The position numbers and the translations under genes were made by a program. Shown here one piece after another: positions 5,434 through 28,766 of a stretch of 32,263 nucleotides of DNA; position 1 is the stretch's first letter, and each line of letters opens with the position of its first letter. The stretch lies in the IMG/VR virus record IMGVR_UViG_3300022074_000209, positions 1-32,263 of that record. One strand, 5' to 3'. The notes below the pieces were generated by a model. The model was not told the DNA's origin. It made no database searches and saw nothing but the letters and a program-made list of their open reading frames with translations. This DNA is from a virus.

Positions 5434-6873
5434 ATGTCACAAATCCCAACGGAAGTTTTAAAATACGAATTAAGAAAGTTTCAAATAAAAGTGGCCGAGG
5501 AGTCCCGTTCCTCCTACCTTACATTTGTAAAAAAAGTTTGGCCTGACTTTATTGCAGGTTCACATCACAAAATTTTTGCACAAAAATTAGAAGACGTTTC
5601 ACGTGGAAAGATAAAAAGATTAATTGTTAACATGCCACCAAGACATACAAAGTCTGAGTTTGCTTCACATTTATTTCCTGCGTGGATGATGGGTAAGAAT
5701 CCTAAGCTAAAAATTATACAAACTACTCACACAGCAGAGCTGTCATATAACTTTGGTAGAAAGGTTCGTAACTTGTTTGAGCAAGATGAATTTAAAGAAG
5801 TATTTTCTGATGTAACACTATCTCAAGATTCTAAGGCAGCAGGTCGTTTTACAACAAACAAGGGCGGCGAATATTTTGCTGCTGGTGTAGGAGGAGCAAT
5901 CACAGGACGTGGTGCAGATTTATTAATTATTGATGACCCACACTCGGAGCAAGATGCCCTGTCACAAACAGCACTAGACAATGCTTACGAATGGTATACC
6001 TCGGGCCCCCGCCAACGTCTCCAGCCTGGTGGCTCTATCGTCATTGTTATGACCAGATGGTCCACGAAAGACCTAACAGGAAAATTAATGAACAATCAAA
6101 CAAATCCAAATGCCGACCAGTGGGACGTGGTTGAGTTTCCTGCAATCTTGAACGAAGAACCACTATGGCCTGAGTTTTGGAAACTATCAGAGCTAGAAGG
6201 TGTCAAAGCATCTTTATCCGAACAAAAATGGCAAGCTCAATGGCAACAAAATCCTGTATCCGAAGAAGGATCAATTATTAAACGAGAATGGTGGCAGATG
6301 TGGGGTAATGAAAAGATACCAGATCTTATGCATATTATTCAATCATATGATACAGCTTTTAGTAAACGTGAGACGGCAGACTTTAGTGCTATCACAACGT
6401 GGGGTGTATTTCGACCCGTGGAACACGGACCACCGCACATTATACTTCTTGCTATGCGTAAAGGCAGATGGGACTTTCCTGATTTAAAAAGGATTGCTTT
6501 AGAAGAATATCAATACTGGGAACCCGAAACAATTTTAGTTGAAGCAAAAGCTTCTGGTATGCCGCTTACACACGAACTACGACAAGTGGGTATACCTGTT
6601 GTAACCTATACACCAAGCAAAGGTAATGATAAGTTTGTTCGTGTAAACTCTGTAGCTCCTATTTTTGAAGCTGGACAAGTATGGGCGCCAGATGAACGCT
6701 GGGCAGAAGAAGTTATTGAAGAATGCGCTGCTTTCCCTTATGGTGATCATGACGATTTAGTTGACTCAACGACGCAGGCGTTGTTGCGATTCAGACAAGG
6801 TAACTTCATACAATTGGAGTCAGACTATGCTGATGAACCTACATACATAGAACAACGAGAATATTACGGATGA
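5434..6873 (+). CDS. terL: Terminase large subunit
   Basis: A 479-residue packaging motor that uses ATP to drive DNA through the portal and cuts the concatemer. The Walker A-like PPRHTKS lies at 68-74, and Walker B LLIIDD at 163-168 is followed by PHSE. A coupling-type MTRWS is at 206-210. The RNase-H-like nuclease begins with SYDTAFS (304-310), has VEAKASG further on, and ends with GDHDDLVDS. Length is normal for the family. No Shine-Dalgarno is visible before the ATG. The stop overlaps the next start (ATGA at 6870-6873). Confidence 0.96.
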   Translation: MSQIPTEVLKYELRKFQIKVAEESRSSYLTFVKKVWPDFIAGSHHKIFAQKLEDVSRGKIKRLIVNMPPRHTKSEFASHLFPAWMMGKNPKLKIIQTTHTAELSYNFGRKVRNLFEQDEFKEVFSDVTLSQDSKAAGRFTTNKGGEYFAAGVGGAITGRGADLLIIDDPHSEQDALSQTALDNAYEWYTSGPRQRLQPGGSIVIVMTRWSTKDLTGKLMNNQTNPNADQWDVVEFPAILNEEPLWPEFWKLSELEGVKASLSEQKWQAQWQQNPVSEEGSIIKREWWQMWGNEKIPDLMHIIQSYDTAFSKRETADFSAITTWGVFRPVEHGPPHIILLAMRKGRWDFPDLKRIALEEYQYWEPETILVEAKASGMPLTHELRQVGIPVVTYTPSKGNDKFVRVNSVAPIFEAGQVWAPDERWAEEVIEECAAFPYGDHDDLVDSTTQALLRFRQGNFIQLESDYADEPTYIEQREYYG

Positions 6874-9800
6874 AAAGAAAAGAAGCAAAAGATAAATTTT
6901 ATGGTCAAGATGATGTAGATATCTTTGAAGGTGGACCTGCTGGACAAACACTCAAAGACATAGATCCTAATTACGGTGGTATTCAATTAGAACAAGACGA
7001 ACTTATAGGAGATCAATTCTCCAGAGATCTAGCAAGATTTACGAAAGGAGTAACTGAATTTATTTCACCTTCTCCTGAAACAATAGCTAAACAAGATGAA
7101 CAGAGAGCACAGAACCAAGCTGTTTTTAATGCAATATTAGAAATTACAGGAAAGGATGCAGACTCCTTTGAGGGACAAAAACTTTTATCTGATCTAAGAA
7201 GAGACTCTGAATTTCAAAAAAATTTAGGGTTTCAAGATGAAGGCATACTTGGAGGAGGAGGTACAACAGATCAACCCATTTATGGATTATATGACATAGG
7301 TAATTTTTTATTTGGAGACGCAAGAAGAGGTCTGACTGAAATGACAGAAAAAGGCACGAAATATAAGGAGCTGCCTTTTGAACAAAAGCTTGGTATTGCT
7401 ATACTACCTATAGATTTAATTGATGTAGGAGGTTTAGCTTATTTAGCAAAGACACCAATCGGCGCTCTTATGAGAGCTGGTCAAAAAACATTCGGTAAGG
7501 GATCTAAACTCACTGTCAAACAACTAGTGGATGATCCTGAGTTTATGTCAAATTATTTAGAACAAAATCCAAATGCTATAAAAACTTTAAAAGATTATGG
7601 TTTTGACATCGAAGCTAGATATGCATCAGGTAAAAAGAAGCGTGGTCCAACGCCAATAGAGAGAGACACGGGATTGGAAATACTCGGAAGAGATTTTTTA
7701 CAAGAACAAAAACAAATTAAACCTGGTGTTGACCCTCAATTAGAAAAAGCAGCTAAAGAAGCAGATCAAGTTGTAAATAATTTTAGTCAAAAATATGAAA
7801 AAGCGTATGCATCTGGAAAAAATAGAAAAAGAGTTTTAAATAAACTTAGAAAAGATGTAGGCGAAAAAGAATTTGATAGATTAGAAAAACTTTCAATACA
7901 AAAAGGTTTAAGCAAAAAAAGAAATTTAGCACCAGAAGGATCAGTAAAAAAAACTACACCAGAAGGTGAAAAATTTATTTTAGAAAATTATGATAAAATG
8001 AGTAACAGGGAGTTACAAGCTATCATGTCATCTGATGAGAATGCCAGTAAATTTTTTTATACCGACTCATCAGGCAATATAAATATACCACAAGATAGTT
8101 ATTTTAGAGCTTACCTTGCAAATACATTAGGCCAGACCAAAGCTGGCGGTATAGGTCAGGCAGGAGGAGATCAAATATCTAAATTATCAAAAGAAGCAGA
8201 TCAAAAAATTTATGATGAATTTAATATATTAAGAGAATCCGAAAATTTTAGATCAAATGATCCTGAGCAAGTAAGACAAGCTTTTGCTAAAGCTTTTACT
8301 AGTGAACAAAGTATGTCAAAGTATGCAGGCACGGATGCTTTATCTACAGAAACAAATTACCTACGTGCTTTAAATAGAAAAATAAAAACATTTAATGAAA
8401 GTCAAGGATTCGGAGTTTTTGATCCAAAAAAAGGTTTTGAAAAAGGAAGAGTTTATAACAGAGATCAGATTCAACAAATAAATAGATTTTTAAAAGTGGG
8501 TGATGAGGTAGACGGAGATAAAACTAGAATCACAAATTTATTTGGTAAATATTTAAACACAAACGATGTTTACAATAATTTAAAAAATAATATGCAAAAA
8601 CTTGATGACAGTTTTTATCCAGTTATTAATGGAAAAGTAAAAAGAGATTTTTCTACAAAACTTAAAAGATATTTAGATTTTGTAAGACAAACATCACCAA
8701 ATACAAAAGATCCTGTCAAAGGTGATTTTGGAGCTTTTATGAATGAATTTGGTTCAGATATAAATGCTTTATTAGATCCAAATTCTATTGAGTATAAAAA
8801 TTTTCAAAAATTTTCTTATCATGACAAGATTAGAGAGGAAGTAGGTAATCTTGCTAAACCATTTTTAAATAAAAGATTTCCGTCTAAAACAGGAAATACA
8901 CCTAGAAATAGTATTCAAATAGCTCACACTTTTGAAAGCAGTCAGGTAGGTAAGACAGTGGGAGAAGGCCTTGAAGGTGCTGGAATGATACCTGGTTCTT
9001 ATTATTTAGATATTTCAGAACTAAATGCAATACAGCAGCCTGTGTTAGAAAGCAGGGCTAGGGCAGCTTACAAAGAATTTAATGAAACTGGTAATAGATC
9101 AAAACTTGATGCCGTAAGTAAAGATTTAGAAAATATAGGAGCAGAGGTAGCTGTTGGTGAGTTCATACTTGGAAAGCACAAATCACTTGAAGAAAAGTTT
9201 TTAGATCTTATTGGTGGACCTCCTGGATCGCCTGAAAGAAAAATATTAAAAGATAAGTATGGAATTTCTGACGAAGAGATTGTAAATTTAGAAAAAGCCA
9301 TTGAGCTTTTAAGTGAAGGTGCAAGTAATGCTGGCATTGCACAAATGCAAAGTGGAGGCTTAGTAGGAGACGTGGACGATATATTTGAAGAAGAACAGGA
9401 GCTATTACAGCCAAAACCAAGAATTACTGTAGATTTTGGCGATGCAGCAAGAGGCACGGTCCGTCGTTTTGGTGAAGAAGAACCTGAAGATATGGTTGAT
9501 TTACCTTTATCTTCTATACAACTTGGAGATGGTCCAGAAGTAAAAGCTACAGCTGCACCAGCTCAAAAGACTTTTGATGTTGAGCCGATGGAAAATATTT
9601 TTACAGGAGAGATGGAGCAAGCAAATTTAAAATTACCTTTTTGGAAATTATTTACAACGCCACCTGTTAATGAAACAGCACCAATACCAACACCAAAAGA
9701 ATCTTTAAACAATCCAACAAAGAAACAGAAAGAAAGTTTAGAACAAGAGAAAATAAAAAAACAGGAAGATGTGTTTGATCCATCACCTGAAGACAATAAA

Positions 9801-11738
9801 AATGTAGATCTAGGAAGTTCAACTGATGTAGCAGTTACACCGAAAACAGGGCAAGCTGTAACGGGTGTATTTTATTCTGATATTGAAAGAGCATTAGCTA
9901 GACCTGATACTCCAGCAATCTTTCCAAATAAAAAAGCCCTTCTTGATTTCTTACGTAAAAATAGAATTAGAGACTCTGAATTTAGAGATTATCAACTTGA
10001 GTCTTTACTTCGTATCTACGATGAAAATACACCAATACCAAAGAAACAAGTAATAGATCATTTACGTCAATCACCTATCAGAGGTATGCACGTGCACGCT
10101 ACGGGTCAGGGGTCCGATATTATTAATCCATACGGCGAGGTTGGAACAAGATATGAAGGCTACGCAGAACCAGGATACATATCTGGCACACAACGTGAAA
10201 GAGTTTTGTATATTCCAAATGATAAAATAGCAGGTGATTCAGGTGGATATCCACAAAGTATTTTTCAAGGTGAATCTATTCAACGACATGAATTTGGCAT
10301 ACCTCAGCAGGATAATGCATACATTGTCGGTTGGACACGGCTCACGGACCGTAATGCTATATTACCAACAAAGATATCAGCACCACAAACAGCATCCAAA
10401 GTGCCTGGTCTTACTCGTGAAAGAGATAGAGTACAAAGACAACTATCTGGATTGTTTGCTGAAGCACAAAACAAATTAAATGCACAAGCACAAAGACGAG
10501 GTATACCTGTTGATGAAATACAAGCTGGTTCTTTAGAAGAAATGCTTAGCACTTATTCAGGAACTCTTAATGAAATAAGCCCTGGCCTAGTAGATCAGAT
10601 GGATGAGCTTATTGTAAAAGCAAGGGACTTAGATGGTGAAATAGCAAAAGGATCTAATATTGATACAAGCGGCGTAGTCCGTGTAGCGTTTGCCGATGAA
10701 ATACAATCAGACATCATGCAAGCAGCAGCTGGTCGAAAACAAAAACTTGTAGCGACTCTTCGAAAAATTCAAGACGAAGGTAAAGAATCTACAACACTTC
10801 CTGAGTTAAGCAGAATTGGTCAACAGGCTTTGGCATTTTTTGAAGAAAACAAATCAGTATTTAGACCACTTCGAAAATCACAAACAGAGGTGGATATAAT
10901 TGGTGACAATCTTGCTAAGCTTGATGCTGAGGTAGATGAAATAATAAATAGATATATTGAAACAAGAGATTTAGATCCAGCTTCAGTAAAAAGATTACAA
11001 GTAGCATTGACAGAAAATATAGATGCAATGATAAATGACCTCATAACGATTGATAATAAAACTTACGAAGGTTTGTTCCCAGATATACCATTTAAGAAAA
11101 GAGAAGAGTGGGCCGATGCTTTAATTAAAAAAGATTTATTTGAGTTAGCTTATAGAAAATTTGTATTGAAAGATCCTCAAGCTCCTGACTATTACTCCGT
11201 TACACCAGATCAGTTTGTAATAGATAGATATAATTTTAAAGGTAATTCAGCTACACCAATGGACGTCAGAGCTGCAGATAAGAAAAAACAAATAGATTAT
11301 TTTACAGGGAGAGGAGAGTTTTTAGGTTCAGAATACAAAGGTATTGGTATGTCAGAATTTTATGGTGGTCCAAATGCTAAAACACCAGACGGCAAGCATT
11401 ATACATCTGTCATAGAGAAAATATTAAAAACACAAGCAAAATCAAACAACTCAGAGTTTACGGTATTAAATGTACAGACAAAGACTGGAGCAAATGTTGT
11501 GTATAAAATTACAGACCAAAATGGCAACATGGTAGCAACACTTACAAATCAAAATCAAGCAGACAGACTGCTAAATACAAATCCAAATTATAGGGTTGAA
11601 AGAGTATCAATGCCAACAGACAAAAATACGACACCATCTTTTGCTATTAAAATTACAGAAGAAATGCTAGAACCATACAAAACCCACAAAGCCAAGGGTG
11701 GACTTGTGCAGATGATTGATATATTTGAGGTAGCTTAA
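6870..11738 (+). CDS. Giant polyvalent-type internal protein (1622 aa)
   Basis: It begins in an ATGA overlap with terL. Residues about 1001-1605 follow a conserved phage polyvalent-protein region as I recall it: FYSDIERAL (1001 on), RERVLYIP, a GWTRLTDR element, FADEIQSD (1274-1281), PFKKREEW (1407 on), KGIGMSEFYGG and a final AIKITEEML. The first 1000 residues are helical, charged and Lys-rich with low similarity to anything I know. SGGLVGDVDDIFEE (828-841) and KGGLVQMIDIFEVA (1609-1622, the C-terminus) repeat one motif, and DDVDIFEGG sits at 14-22. Polyvalent proteins can be packaged and injected with DNA. Placement between terL and portal fits an internal virion protein, but that is inference. 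Confidence 0.75.
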   Translation: MKRKEAKDKFYGQDDVDIFEGGPAGQTLKDIDPNYGGIQLEQDELIGDQFSRDLARFTKGVTEFISPSPETIAKQDEQRAQNQAVFNAILEITGKDADSFEGQKLLSDLRRDSEFQKNLGFQDEGILGGGGTTDQPIYGLYDIGNFLFGDARRGLTEMTEKGTKYKELPFEQKLGIAILPIDLIDVGGLAYLAKTPIGALMRAGQKTFGKGSKLTVKQLVDDPEFMSNYLEQNPNAIKTLKDYGFDIEARYASGKKKRGPTPIERDTGLEILGRDFLQEQKQIKPGVDPQLEKAAKEADQVVNNFSQKYEKAYASGKNRKRVLNKLRKDVGEKEFDRLEKLSIQKGLSKKRNLAPEGSVKKTTPEGEKFILENYDKMSNRELQAIMSSDENASKFFYTDSSGNINIPQDSYFRAYLANTLGQTKAGGIGQAGGDQISKLSKEADQKIYDEFNILRESENFRSNDPEQVRQAFAKAFTSEQSMSKYAGTDALSTETNYLRALNRKIKTFNESQGFGVFDPKKGFEKGRVYNRDQIQQINRFLKVGDEVDGDKTRITNLFGKYLNTNDVYNNLKNNMQKLDDSFYPVINGKVKRDFSTKLKRYLDFVRQTSPNTKDPVKGDFGAFMNEFGSDINALLDPNSIEYKNFQKFSYHDKIREEVGNLAKPFLNKRFPSKTGNTPRNSIQIAHTFESSQVGKTVGEGLEGAGMIPGSYYLDISELNAIQQPVLESRARAAYKEFNETGNRSKLDAVSKDLENIGAEVAVGEFILGKHKSLEEKFLDLIGGPPGSPERKILKDKYGISDEEIVNLEKAIELLSEGASNAGIAQMQSGGLVGDVDDIFEEEQELLQPKPRITVDFGDAARGTVRRFGEEEPEDMVDLPLSSIQLGDGPEVKATAAPAQKTFDVEPMENIFTGEMEQANLKLPFWKLFTTPPVNETAPIPTPKESLNNPTKKQKESLEQEKIKKQEDVFDPSPEDNKNVDLGSSTDVAVTPKTGQAVTGVFYSDIERALARPDTPAIFPNKKALLDFLRKNRIRDSEFRDYQLESLLRIYDENTPIPKKQVIDHLRQSPIRGMHVHATGQGSDIINPYGEVGTRYEGYAEPGYISGTQRERVLYIPNDKIAGDSGGYPQSIFQGESIQRHEFGIPQQDNAYIVGWTRLTDRNAILPTKISAPQTASKVPGLTRERDRVQRQLSGLFAEAQNKLNAQAQRRGIPVDEIQAGSLEEMLSTYSGTLNEISPGLVDQMDELIVKARDLDGEIAKGSNIDTSGVVRVAFADEIQSDIMQAAAGRKQKLVATLRKIQDEGKESTTLPELSRIGQQALAFFEENKSVFRPLRKSQTEVDIIGDNLAKLDAEVDEIINRYIETRDLDPASVKRLQVALTENIDAMINDLITIDNKTYEGLFPDIPFKKREEWADALIKKDLFELAYRKFVLKDPQAPDYYSVTPDQFVIDRYNFKGNSATPMDVRAADKKKQIDYFTGRGEFLGSEYKGIGMSEFYGGPNAKTPDGKHYTSVIEKILKTQAKSNNSEFTVLNVQTKTGANVVYKITDQNGNMVATLTNQNQADRLLNTNPNYRVERVSMPTDKNTTPSFAIKITEEMLEPYKTHKAKGGLVQMIDIFEVA

Positions 11739-20456: not shown

Positions 20457-20972
20457 ATGGCTGAAAAAATAGGACCAATATTTAATAGAATTTTAATTAA
20501 AAAATTAGATCAAGCATTAGACAATGGATCTATAAATAAAAAAGATTATAATGATTTGAAAAAAAAATATTTTGGAAAGCCAAAATTAATTCAAATGGAT
20601 TTATTTGATCCAAAGAAAAAGAAACAAGGAGGACTTATGGAGGCGACAAAAAGATTAAAAGCTCAAGGACTTAAAAAAGGTGGTTTTCCTGATTTAAGTG
20701 GTGACGGTAAAGTTACTATGAAAGACGTTCTTATGGGACGTGGTGTAATTAAAAAACCAAAGAAAAAAGCCATGGGTGGATCTATGACTCTTGAAGGCGG
20801 AAAACTAAAAGGTGTAAAAGATGCACCTGAAGAGAGACGCAAAGAAAAAATTCAAAAAATTAAAGGTTTTCTTAAAAGAAGATCCTTGTTAAATCCTATG
20901 GGTGGATCAAGAGGTCTTGGAAAAGTTGCAGGTAGAGCTGCAAAAAGAGGATATGGTATAGCGAAAAAGTGA
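20457..20972 (+). CDS. Basic protein with EF-hand and GG motifs
   Basis: A 171-residue, Lys/Gly-rich protein. Residues 79-90 are DLSGDGKVTMKD, a complete 12-residue calcium-binding loop of the EF-hand/dockerin type (D79, S81, D83, K85, T87, D90), framed by KKGGF and VLMGRGV. Double-glycine motifs in basic contexts occur at 58-59, 75-76, 107-108 (KKAMGG) and 149-150. The C-terminus is basic (GRAAKRGYGIAKK). It starts right after the preceding stop. It may be a calcium-responsive virion or DNA-binding protein. Confidence 0.75.
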   Translation: MAEKIGPIFNRILIKKLDQALDNGSINKKDYNDLKKKYFGKPKLIQMDLFDPKKKKQGGLMEATKRLKAQGLKKGGFPDLSGDGKVTMKDVLMGRGVIKKPKKKAMGGSMTLEGGKLKGVKDAPEERRKEKIQKIKGFLKRRSLLNPMGGSRGLGKVAGRAAKRGYGIAKK

Positions 20973-21526
20973 TTAGAATATTATTAATAATATTACTTTT
21001 ATCTGTATCAATTAAAGCTTTTGCAGAAACAAATACTGTAAGTTCTACTGTTGTTACAAATAATACACCACCTACAGCAAATTCACCAAGTGTTGTTGTA
21101 AACAATTCTGACGTTTGTAAGACGGCAGTAGCGGGCGCCGTGCAGACCCAGATTTTAGGAATTTCGTCGGGAATTACGGTGACTGATGAAAACTGTGAAA
21201 GAATAAAATTAGCTAGATCTTTGTATGCTTCAGGCATGAAAGTTGCATCTGTGTCAATATTGTGTCAAGATCCACGTGTTTTTGACAGCATGACCATGGC
21301 AGGCACCCCATGTCCGTATATGGGTTCTATTGGTCAAGATGCTGAAACAGGCTGGAAAGAAAATATGGATATGATTCCAGAGGGTAGTGTTGTCTATGCA
21401 AAATGGAATGATGAGATTAATAAAATAAAAGTTAAAGAAGGAGTCGAAAGCGATGGAGCAAAACTGGCGAAATTTATTATTGCTGCTATGGTTATGCACT
21501 CTGGTATCGTTACCTTCTTCCCTTAG
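20969..21526 (+). CDS. Exported four-cysteine protein
   Basis: A 185-residue protein with GTG start overlapping the previous stop (GTGA). The first 19 residues are a signal peptide (hydrophobic core LLIILLLSVSI, cleavage likely after AFA-19). Four cysteines at 50, 76, 99 and 115 would allow two disulphides in the periplasm. The motif CQDPRVFDSMTMAGTPCPY (99-117) looks like a family signature I recall from marine phages. The C-terminus (166-184) is hydrophobic and may be a membrane anchor. It pairs with the exported protein that follows, with which it overlaps by 74 bases. Confidence 0.75.
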   Translation: MIRILLIILLLSVSIKAFAETNTVSSTVVTNNTPPTANSPSVVVNNSDVCKTAVAGAVQTQILGISSGITVTDENCERIKLARSLYASGMKVASVSILCQDPRVFDSMTMAGTPCPYMGSIGQDAETGWKENMDMIPEGSVVYAKWNDEINKIKVKEGVESDGAKLAKFIIAAMVMHSGIVTFFP

Positions 21527-23249
21527 AGCTGAGTGTCCAGTAACTGCTACAGGAGTTTGTACACCTGGCATAGAAGAAACAATTGTAATAACAGAAACAG
21601 AATCAATTGAATATGAAGCTGATGGCCATACAGTAACTACTGAGACTACCACTACAACAACGACAGTAACAACTACTAATGAAGACTCAGGAGATATTCT
21701 TGATGGAAGTAGTGGATTTGTACAGCCTAGATATGAAGGGGATATGGACCAGGATTGGGGTGGGCAAGGCCCTGCTAGTATGCCTTCAGGCAATTCTTGT
21801 TACGAATTAGGCTCAGATAAATGTGCACAAATTACTGGATCAGGTAATTCAACGTCTACTCAAGGTGTAAGCGGAATGGGAACCACCTTTATACAAACTG
21901 TAGATATATCTTCACTTGATGTAAAAAATGGGGGTAGAACAAACTATTCTATCAAAGTCGATAAAAGAGACGCTGATGATCGTATTTATATGCACATCAC
22001 AGGAAAAAATGGCAACACAAGTGTTTTTTCAGGAACAGACATTTTATCAGAATCTGGTGTTACTAGTGGTTATCAAGAATACACAGGAGGTTTTGATTTT
22101 GCAGGAACTATAACAAGGTTAACCATAGAAATTGGAGGGCGTGATATATCTTTGGCAATTGGACCGCTTTTTGATGATGTACGTGTAAACGTGCTTTACA
22201 ACGTCGTATCAACTATAGTTACACAACAAATAACAACAATTGAAATGTGGATTGCTTATGGTGGTAGCACAGAAACAGAAGTTATAGATATCGTAGAAAA
22301 CATTTTTGAACACAATGATATCGTGATTGATGCACCGCAAGATGATTATTTTTTTGAACCAGAGTTTGATGAACCAGATATGGAAGTATCTTATGAAACT
22401 GTGGAGATGGAAATGGAGATGGATTATCAAATGGACTTTGAAATGGAAATGCCTGTAATGGAAGTAGAATTTGAAATGCCAGAATTAACTGTAGATGAAG
22501 TAAATGTAGCCTCTGTTGAAATAGAAATGGAAATGGAATTAGAGATGGAATTAGAAATGCCAGATTTAGAATTACCAGAACCAGACATGGAAATGCCAGA
22601 AATGGATATGAATATGCCGGAACCAGAAATGGAAATGCCAGAGACAGAGCCAGAAATGACAGAAGAGATTGAAGTTGCACCAGAACCAGATACAATGGAG
22701 CCTGAAGTAGAAGCTGAACCAGAGATGGAGGAAACAGCCAATGAACCAGAACCAGAACCACAAAGTGAGCCCGAGGCTGAAGCTGAGCCAGAACCCGTGG
22801 ATGAGTCTACTGAAGAAGATTCTACAGAGGCTGAAGCTGATGCGGAAGAAGAGCCTGAGCAGAAAGAGAGCGTATCAGAGGCTGAGGACAATGAAGAGCA
22901 ACCAGAAGATATGGAAGAACCAGAAGATAAGGGTGAAACCGAAGAGAAACCTGTAAAAAAACCAGAATCTAAAAAAGAAAAAGCTGCAAAGAAAATTGTC
23001 AAGAAGATGGGTGATAAGGGTAGATATGACTCAACAAATCAGTTAAAAACATTAATTGTGATGCAAGTATTAGGTGACACAAAAACCTTTTTTGAGTCGC
23101 AAAAACAACTGGAGGATCGATTAGATTTTTTTACTGATTACATGATACCAGATGCAGATATACAAAATAACAATATAGCGCAGTGGTATTTATTTAGTGG
23201 CAGTGATGGTATGATGAATGATATGATAGATTTACAATGGCAGAAGTAG
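21453..23249 (+). CDS. Exported protein with long Met/Glu/Pro tract
   Basis: A 598-residue protein with an AAGGAG site at 21438-21443. The signal peptide is residues 1-26 (LLLLLWLCTLVSLPSSLRA). Residues 27-290 are beta-like and Thr-rich, with several Cys residues near 28-36 and 105-115. Residues about 295-500 are an extreme acidic repeat of Glu, Met and Pro (EMEMEMDYQM, MEMPEMDMNMP), then EPEPEP and acidic runs. A basic patch (KKPESKKEKAAKKIVKK) and a C-terminal helical domain finish it. It is probably outside the cytoplasm; function is unknown. Confidence 0.8.
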   Translation: MEQNWRNLLLLLWLCTLVSLPSSLRAECPVTATGVCTPGIEETIVITETESIEYEADGHTVTTETTTTTTTVTTTNEDSGDILDGSSGFVQPRYEGDMDQDWGGQGPASMPSGNSCYELGSDKCAQITGSGNSTSTQGVSGMGTTFIQTVDISSLDVKNGGRTNYSIKVDKRDADDRIYMHITGKNGNTSVFSGTDILSESGVTSGYQEYTGGFDFAGTITRLTIEIGGRDISLAIGPLFDDVRVNVLYNVVSTIVTQQITTIEMWIAYGGSTETEVIDIVENIFEHNDIVIDAPQDDYFFEPEFDEPDMEVSYETVEMEMEMDYQMDFEMEMPVMEVEFEMPELTVDEVNVASVEIEMEMELEMELEMPDLELPEPDMEMPEMDMNMPEPEMEMPETEPEMTEEIEVAPEPDTMEPEVEAEPEMEETANEPEPEPQSEPEAEAEPEPVDESTEEDSTEAEADAEEEPEQKESVSEAEDNEEQPEDMEEPEDKGETEEKPVKKPESKKEKAAKKIVKKMGDKGRYDSTNQLKTLIVMQVLGDTKTFFESQKQLEDRLDFFTDYMIPDADIQNNNIAQWYLFSGSDGMMNDMIDLQWQK

Positions 23250-23919: not shown

Positions 23920-24047
23920 GAAAAGGTTTATATGCTAATATTCATGCTAAAAGAAAACGTGGTGAAAAAATGCGAAAAAAAGGTGCAAAGGGTGCACCTA
24001 CTGCAGCTAACTTTGCAAGAGCAAAAAAAACAGTGAGGAAAAAATGA
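23916..24047 (+). CDS. 43-residue GLYANIHAKRKR-type mini-protein
   Basis: The product begins MRKGLYANIHAKRKRGEKMR and continues KKGAKGAPTAANFARAKK. GLYANIHAKRKR...GEKMRKKGAKGAPT is a widespread motif that I recall from phages and giant or algal viruses. Its start overlaps the preceding stop (ATGA), and its stop overlaps the next start, so the set is translated as a chain. Function is unknown. Confidence 0.8.
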   Translation: MRKGLYANIHAKRKRGEKMRKKGAKGAPTAANFARAKKTVRKK

Positions 24048-24334
24048 CTAAATTATGTCCTAGAGGTAAAGCAGCAGCTAAGAGAAAATTTAAAGTTTAT
24101 CCAAGTGCATATGCAAATGCATACGCTTCAAAAATATGTGCAGGCAAAATTAAAGATCCAAGCGGTGTAAAAAGGAAAGATTTTAAAGGACCTAAAAAAG
24201 CCATGGGCGGTGTTATAGATTTTAACAAAATTTCACAACAAAGAAAAAAAGTATCATCAATGAATAAAGGTGGTATGGCAAAAGCTTGTGGTGCCGTTAT
24301 GGAAGGTAAAAGAAAACAAACTAAGTTTAGTTAA
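24044..24334 (+). CDS. Basic CPRGKAAAKRKF-type protein with KAMGG
   Basis: A 96-residue protein with an N-terminal block CPRGKAAAKRKFKVYPSAYA then NAYASKICAGK that I recall as a conserved small basic domain from phages and large viruses. A KKAMGG motif (51-56) and an NKGGMAKACGAVMEGK end follow. Codons of KAMGG match those in the 759 and 20457 genes, including the rare GCC. Overlap is ATGA upstream and TAATG downstream. Confidence 0.8.
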   Translation: MTKLCPRGKAAAKRKFKVYPSAYANAYASKICAGKIKDPSGVKRKDFKGPKKAMGGVIDFNKISQQRKKVSSMNKGGMAKACGAVMEGKRKQTKFS

Positions 24335-27848: not shown

Positions 27849-28766
27849 ATGGCTTTTATCCTAAACGATCGAGTTAAGGTTACCTCGACCACACAAGGCA
27901 CAGGTGTATTTGCACTTGGTAGTGCCACTGCTGGTTTTGAAACTTTTGCAACTGGTATAGGTGGTAGCAATACCACGTACTATGCAATTGCTCATCAAAG
28001 CTCTGCAGAGTTTGAAGTAGGTTTTGGAACACTAGACTCTGACGGTGACGCACTAACTAGAACTTATATTATCAACAGTTCAAATAGTGATGCGGCTGTA
28101 AACTTTACTGCAGGAACAAAAGATGTATTTTGTACGATGCCAGCCTCTAAAGTTGGTTTGCCATTTCCACAAGAGTATGGATCGTCAGGTGCACCTAAGA
28201 TAATTACTGTTAAAGTAGGTTCTAAAACAAGTAGTCATCCTTATCCAGCAGGAGGAAGTTCTAGTAGTAATGCATACTTTTTAGATGGATTAGAATCACC
28301 AGCACTACGTTTTTCTGGTGCTGATCCTAATGCCAAATATTACTATAAATTTGACACATCAGACAATAGTAACTCAGGACACCCTTTACGTTTTTATTTA
28401 GATGCTGCTAAAAATAACGCATACACAACAGGTGTTACGACCAGTGGCTCTGGGGGTAGTTCAGGAGATTATGTTCAAATAGCAGTAGATGCTAACACAC
28501 CAAATATATTGTATTATCAATGTTCTTCTCATGGATACATGGGTAACCATGCTGTTAACGTGTCTAATAGTGTAAACGGCGATTTGACTCTTAACTCAAA
28601 ATTAAAAATGCCAGATAATACATCTGGTAAAATATTAGTTGGTGACGGCACTAGCTATGAAGAAGTAGCTGTTTCTGGAGATGCAACGCTCTCTAGTAGT
28701 GGTGCTTTAACAATAACAGGAGGCGTAACACAAGGCTTTGTAATTGCAATGTCCGTGGCGCTTTGA
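27849..28766 (+). CDS. Tail fibre-like protein with cupredoxin-like domain
   Basis: A 305-residue protein. Residues 1-105 are an N-terminal virion-attachment-like part (MAFILNDRVKVTSTTQGTGV). Residues about 118-238 look like a cupredoxin: GHPLRF with H178, then YYQCSSHGYMGNH with C225, H228 and M231. C-X2-H-X2-M is the amicyanin spacing, and the distant His completes a type-1 copper ligand set. The C-terminal 65 residues are the Gly/Thr/Ser-rich fibre tail (SGKILVGDGTSYEE, LSSSGALTIT). GGAGAAG is its ribosome site. Copper binding is unproven; the domain could be a copper-free fold used for receptor contact. Confidence 0.75.
   Translation: MAFILNDRVKVTSTTQGTGVFALGSATAGFETFATGIGGSNTTYYAIAHQSSAEFEVGFGTLDSDGDALTRTYIINSSNSDAAVNFTAGTKDVFCTMPASKVGLPFPQEYGSSGAPKIITVKVGSKTSSHPYPAGGSSSSNAYFLDGLESPALRFSGADPNAKYYYKFDTSDNSNSGHPLRFYLDAAKNNAYTTGVTTSGSGGSSGDYVQIAVDANTPNILYYQCSSHGYMGNHAVNVSNSVNGDLTLNSKLKMPDNTSGKILVGDGTSYEEVAVSGDATLSSSGALTITGGVTQGFVIAMSVAL

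Follow-up and report, generated by a model that had tools for sequence, protein, structure and literature searches.

Phage fibres and spikes are known to hold iron or other structural metals, and in the known characterised protein families a His2-Cys-Met set within a cupredoxin fold makes up a type 1 copper site. A fibre gene in the virus record IMGVR_UViG_3300022074_000209, all 32,263 bases of which were analysed and are referred to here as the window, raises the question of whether such a site could form part of a phage particle: its product had been described, in an original prediction made from the sequence, as a phage fibre with a complete set of type 1 copper ligands. The gene product is quite likely a fibre protein of the virion surface, with an attachment domain at its N terminus, then a mobile cupredoxin-like domain, and lastly a fibre tail; copper binding and docking are functions that we propose for this domain, each with its own degree of confidence.

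Fibre gene architecture and ligand set

Translations of the reading frames in the window suggest terminase-, portal- and capsid-like genes followed by tail genes, and the genes immediately 5′ of the frame under study (Table 1) match tail protein families. The 305-aa product itself matches the profile of the tail fibre protein family phrog_30742 over residues 114–298 (E = 6.8e-38), in keeping with the fibre label that it had been given. Full-length relatives with 58–98% identity occur on more than 30 viral contigs. In 21 of the 80 nearest viral loci (L060–L080) the match is confined to residues 1–101/102, the N-terminal domain. The available 1.7–10 kb of sequence contained no copy of the central cupredoxin-like module in 20 of these 21 loci, and L060 carries the module in another gene. 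A similar separation is seen in phage 023Pt_psg01, where a 127-aa protein consists mostly of the N-terminal domain and a nearby protein of ~365 aa carries the module. In a full-length model built from 60 sequences (mean pLDDT 73.5), residues 5–96 resemble part of the tailspike of Acinetobacter phage Solidus (Z 6.4) and also chain 1 of the GP4 portal-tail complex (Z 6.0), likenesses that suit a protein of the adsorption apparatus. The C-terminal residues have pLDDT values mostly of 42–67 by block and are included in the region matched by phrog_30742.

Table 1. Features of the fibre gene, in window coordinates.
Feature	Position	Strand	Basis or remark
Tail fibre (virion) protein with module, 305 aa	27849..28766	+	Open frame, ATG start; phrog_30742
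N-terminal domain, residues 1–101, probably the attachment part	27849..28151	+	Also found without the module
Cupredoxin-like module, residues ~110–235	28176..28553	+	AlphaFold2 model, VIA-align, copies in virion proteins
H178, first His ligand (predicted)	28380..28382	+	In GHPLRF, just ahead of a strand
C225, Cys ligand (predicted)	28521..28523	+	End of the penultimate strand
H228, second His ligand (predicted)	28530..28532	+	
M231, probable axial Met ligand	28539..28541	+	
C-terminal stretch, residues 242–305, low-confidence fibre tail	28572..28763	+	pLDDT; phrog_30742 match

The four predicted ligands fall where the original prediction had placed them, with GHPLRF starting at residue 177 and YYQCSSHGYM at residue 222, and they form the full His-Cys-His-Met set with C-x2-H-x2-M spacing that it had described. 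This motif occurs once in the 17,738 residues of the stop-to-stop frames of the window (at least 60 aa each), and when the 305-aa protein was shuffled 200,000 times, the motif together with a His 25–60 aa upstream arose in 32 of the shuffles (1.6e-4). In the model of the isolated module, the strands at module residues 71–74 and 111–116 flank H69 and end at C116, respectively; the first His thus precedes a middle strand, and the Cys, the second His and the Met occupy the loop after the penultimate strand. Two other uses of these residues were considered and rejected: C95 of the N-terminal domain, a candidate partner for C225, is conserved also in relatives without the module and so is not linked to it, and a haem site was discarded because no CxxCH is present.

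Predicted fold and relation to copper protein families

An AlphaFold2 model of the module, built from 21 aligned relatives, had a pLDDT of 84.7 and a pTM of 0.83. When it was compared with known structures by VIA-align, the best 50 rows were all copper nitrite reductases, rusticyanins or laccases (best Z 6.7; rmsd 2.9 over 95 residues); a Z below 8 is weak when taken alone, and it is the uniformity of this list that counts. Residues ~98–235 of the full-length model likewise pair almost solely with rusticyanin, NirK, laccases and CueO. A Foldseek search of the module model against the PDB returned nothing at E < 1e-3, and its top rows were mostly copper proteins. On both models the module is therefore predicted to adopt a cupredoxin beta-sandwich, the outcome that the earlier proposal of a cupredoxin-type domain had anticipated. 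Among predicted viral structures, the module model matched cyanophage tail proteins with E values down to 1e-12. The BFVD matches also include ‘beta-sandwich protein’ entries from Pithovirus-/Marseillevirus-like giant viruses (LCPAC/LCMAC; A0A481Z6J5, A0A481Z7Q7, A0A481YWX9 and A0A481YY19; best E 2e-5), two of which are stand-alone proteins of 124 and 133 aa.

Sequence comparisons were carried out with the window protein, with its relatives and with sister copies of the module in other virion proteins. The 305-aa protein alone matched no Pfam family and retrieved no cupredoxin in a PDB sequence search, and its close relatives gave no cupredoxin match in NCBIfam. PF00127 (Copper-bind) matches sister copies in long virion proteins of P-SSM2, P-HM1 and S-MbCM7 (E 1.8e-4 to 4.8e-4), the best of which reach 18.1–19.8 bits, under the 21.2-bit cut-off; the same model also detects plastocyanin (PetE-like) genes in 7 of 18 phage records. 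The P-SSM2 copy (L413) matches rusticyanin (5.6e-4; 20.1 bits on TIGR03095, cut-off 146.7), amicyanin (8.9e-4; 19.6 bits on TIGR02657, cut-off 110.2) and PF13473 (Cupredoxin_1; 7.1e-4), and all matches of sister copies to these three models and to PF00127 score below the curated cut-offs. A profile built from 20 diverse module copies matched Thermus NirK (5e-4), pseudoazurin (0.0045) and plastocyanin 1b3i (0.054), the last with the first His, the Cys and the second His in register, whereas hhalign against cyanophage PetE (E 0.024) aligned the C-x2-H end alone, with a PetE alignment of only 6 close sequences. Since all of the family matches fall below curated cut-offs and the comparison with PetE is weak, we describe the module as a divergent cupredoxin-type domain, and assign it to none of the curated families.

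The module is nevertheless like the type 1 copper proteins (amicyanin, plastocyanin, pseudoazurin, rusticyanin and the N-terminal domain of three-domain NirK) in its predicted fold, its His...Cys-x2-His-x2-Met set, its amicyanin-type loop spacing and the places of the ligands relative to the strands. Those proteins are periplasmic or thylakoid carriers, whereas the module is part of a virion fibre. A further difference is the Pro that follows its first His (H178-P), where plastocyanin and amicyanin usually have Asn, although His-Pro is also found at laccase T1 sites. A different family, PF25489 (At5g54830-like domain), is matched by 13 of 21 close relatives over the end of the module that holds the CxxH loop (best E 2.7e-5, with the scores shown for the relatives under the 27-bit cut-off), and by the window module with an E of 0.1; the family is named after a plant membrane protein that has DOMON and cytochrome b561 domains.

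Concerted conservation and distribution of the module

Conservation is better evidence for the site than the rarity of the motif. In an alignment of 20 diverse copies with a mean column identity of 38%, six columns are invariant, namely an F, the first His, a Y, the Cys, the second His and the Met. Two scans seeded with the CxxH loop were excluded as evidence of conservation because it would be circular there. When viral sequences were instead searched with an alignment of the ligand-free stretch that separates the first His from the Cys, the His and C-x2-H-x2-M were kept in 76 of the 77 distinct copies among the matches listed, and both the first His and the Met have been lost from the remaining one (DCHL). 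All four ligands were kept in 27 of 28 distinct cellular copies, found with two seeds of which one includes the Cys and neither holds the complete set; the exception, from Nonlabens (L294, 1855–4059), has lost all four but retains the fold signature described below for degenerate phage copies. The viral and cellular copies in these searches are fairly close to each other.

A search with the diverse profile in 18 annotated phage genomes gave 40 copies after fragments had been merged. Thirty of them hold all four ligands, one with the spacing C-x2-H-x3-M, and the remaining ten lack both the Cys and the Met, with the second His kept in one of the ten and the first His in two or three. No copy among the 40 has the Cys without the first His, and a Fisher test on the co-retention of ligands gave values of 6e-7 to 6e-6, with copies treated as unrelated and the 10 degenerate copies assigned by eye. 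The degenerate copies, which lie in cyanophage virion proteins (L410, L412, L414 and L418–L424), retain a fold signature of the YxFDxSD type. Across the family, the set that had been noted in one protein thus behaves as a single functional unit, kept or lost together and dispensable to the fold, which is the behaviour expected of a metal site. At each His and Cys ligand position both synonymous codons occur, which places the conservation at the amino-acid level.

By sequence matching, the module is a mobile element present in hundreds of mostly marine viral contigs, with at least 557–575 confirmed stretches per broad viral-contig scan. In T4-like cyanophages, pelagiphages and OM43 phages it is carried by fibres, by the baseplate proteins gp7/gp9 and by proximal tail fibres. 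Copies were found in fibres of P-SSM2, Bellamy, P-TIM68, Melnitz, Mosig and Baldr, in proteins annotated as virion structural proteins in S-TIM5, S-TIM66 and Syn1, and in gp9 of S-SSM4 and ACG-2014d, with up to five module matches in a single genome among the 18 annotated ones. The virion structural annotations are consistent with the window protein being part of the particle. A second subfamily, retrieved with the copy in the P-SSM2 proximal tail fibre, is represented in 109 phage records, all but one from cyanophages or marine viruses. Together with the viral-contig scans, these records bear out the original remark that such segments are common in marine phage proteins. The fibre and baseplate proteins of marine T4-like phages (phrog_30742, phrog_27200, phrog_677 and phrog_693) contain the same module but are longer than the window protein and have other N-terminal domains, and none is annotated as a copper protein.

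Some individual arrangements are also of interest. In P-SSM2 (L407, 25460–25950) one module is flanked by GPT repeats of the collagen type (Pfam Collagen, E 1.2e-7), and so would be displayed on a triple-helical fibre, and in two other loci (L335, 1363–2013; L275, 2956–3630) two complete modules adjoin within one protein. Among cellular proteins, SAR86 lipoproteins of ~180 residues consist of a lipobox, a linker, one module and little else, and SAR86 subtilase-type proteins also carry the module. Two such short lipoproteins (L286, 2746–3309; L292, 2761–3309) have a signal peptide, a lipobox, a Gly/Ser linker and a single module with all four ligands. The phage domain may have its cellular origin or counterpart in the SAR86 lipoproteins.

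Probable copper binding and a possible role in adsorption

The ligand set and the modelled fold together suggest that the module probably binds copper. The ligands and spacing on which the original type 1 copper reading was based stand, and are now joined by a cupredoxin-like predicted fold; the copper itself we hold to be probable. Each domain would carry one copper ion outside the cell, in a type 1 site formed by H178, C225 and H228 with M231 as the axial ligand. Loading would probably follow lysis, since the cytosol contains extremely little free copper and would offer too little of it during assembly. Much less surely, the metal-loaded module could help in adsorption by serving as an accessory element for docking or display. 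What speaks for this role is distribution and place: one and the same fibre gene can have the module or lack it, and a single phage can carry it in several of its exposed virion proteins. As an optional element on several virion proteins, the module can be likened to the Ig-like domains of phages. The broader statement that ocean phage particles, those of T4-like cyanophages and pelagiphages included, are type 1 copper metalloproteins, with one to several modules in exposed fibre or baseplate proteins taking part in infection, is one that we regard as doubtful.

An alternative interpretation is that the cluster binds Cu, Zn or another metal just to hold an exposed beta-sandwich together, with no redox or docking chemistry. 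Retention of the ligands as a unit is compatible with such a staple, and other phage fibres and spikes are stabilised by metal ions, but we consider it unlikely because the 10 cyanophage copies that retain the fold signature without ligands indicate that the fold needs no metal, and because an axial Met is untypical of zinc sites. The same ligand-less copies, occurring in the same phages, would suit a metal-free scaffold derived from a cupredoxin and used in an Ig-like way, its residues retained because they serve packing or form a binding surface, and every metal-family match lying below cut-off points in that direction too. However, packing alone does not predict that 76/77 viral and 27/28 cellular copies, among the matches listed, keep four residues whose losses are concerted, and we judge this scaffold to be distinctly unlikely. 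The shortness of the motif and the middling structural Z might raise the suspicion that an unrelated, beta-rich fibre domain had acquired it by chance; conservation over hundreds of copies and the agreement between fold and family matches make such a coincidence hardly credible.

Two further readings accept copper on the virion and give it another task. The complete type 1 set with an axial Met is that of electron carriers, and sister copies match the amicyanin and rusticyanin models, so that the copper might exchange electrons with a host surface protein or remove superoxide at the cell surface. We know of no electron partner, electron path or enzyme on virions, and copies of the module are dispersed among a wide range of virion proteins; redox chemistry of this kind is, in our view, decidedly improbable. 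It is more improbable still that the fibre offers its copper to a copper uptake receptor of the host, since a buried type 1 site exposes its metal poorly and no known host copper receptor is implicated. Such a Trojan horse would be analogous to the iron hypothesis for marine phage fibres, of which the fibre of an Alteromonas phage is the proposed example (PMC11705849), and nearly all of the module-bearing phage records do infect marine plankton bacteria. The preferred reading thus remains a probable copper site whose use in docking or display is tentative.

A literature search, with most subscription journals and bioRxiv preprints outside its scope, found no paper naming a cupredoxin or a copper site in phage virions. 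The nearest counterpart is the iron proposed on the fibre of Alteromonas phage R22Y (PMC11705849), where HxH domains of the T4 gp37 type would place a metal on a marine phage fibre; the metal, the motif and the fold all differ from those proposed for the module. Domains of this kind are already known, and what is new is to meet one in the fibre of a virion. Should the module bind copper, ocean virus particles of a very common class would bear a redox-active metal on their surface, infection would be linked to the copper chemistry of sea water, and a simple colour assay would become available for the function of proteins now called just ‘tail fibre’ or ‘hypothetical’. Were ocean phages indeed copper metalloproteins, the adsorption of marine phages would depend in part on copper status, and the phages would carry bound copper in sea water. 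Even without copper, the analysis provides a fold assignment for many unannotated marine virion proteins.

Two features of other window proteins were recorded in passing. The short motif KKAMGG or near forms of it (KAKGGLV, MQSGGLV) occur in otherwise unrelated proteins at 759–1163, 6870–11738, 20457–20972 and 24044–24334, often close to the C terminus, and the 598-aa protein at 21453–23249 opens with a signal-like sequence and contains a long acidic region of Met/Glu repeats (EMEMEME, MPEMDMNMPE).
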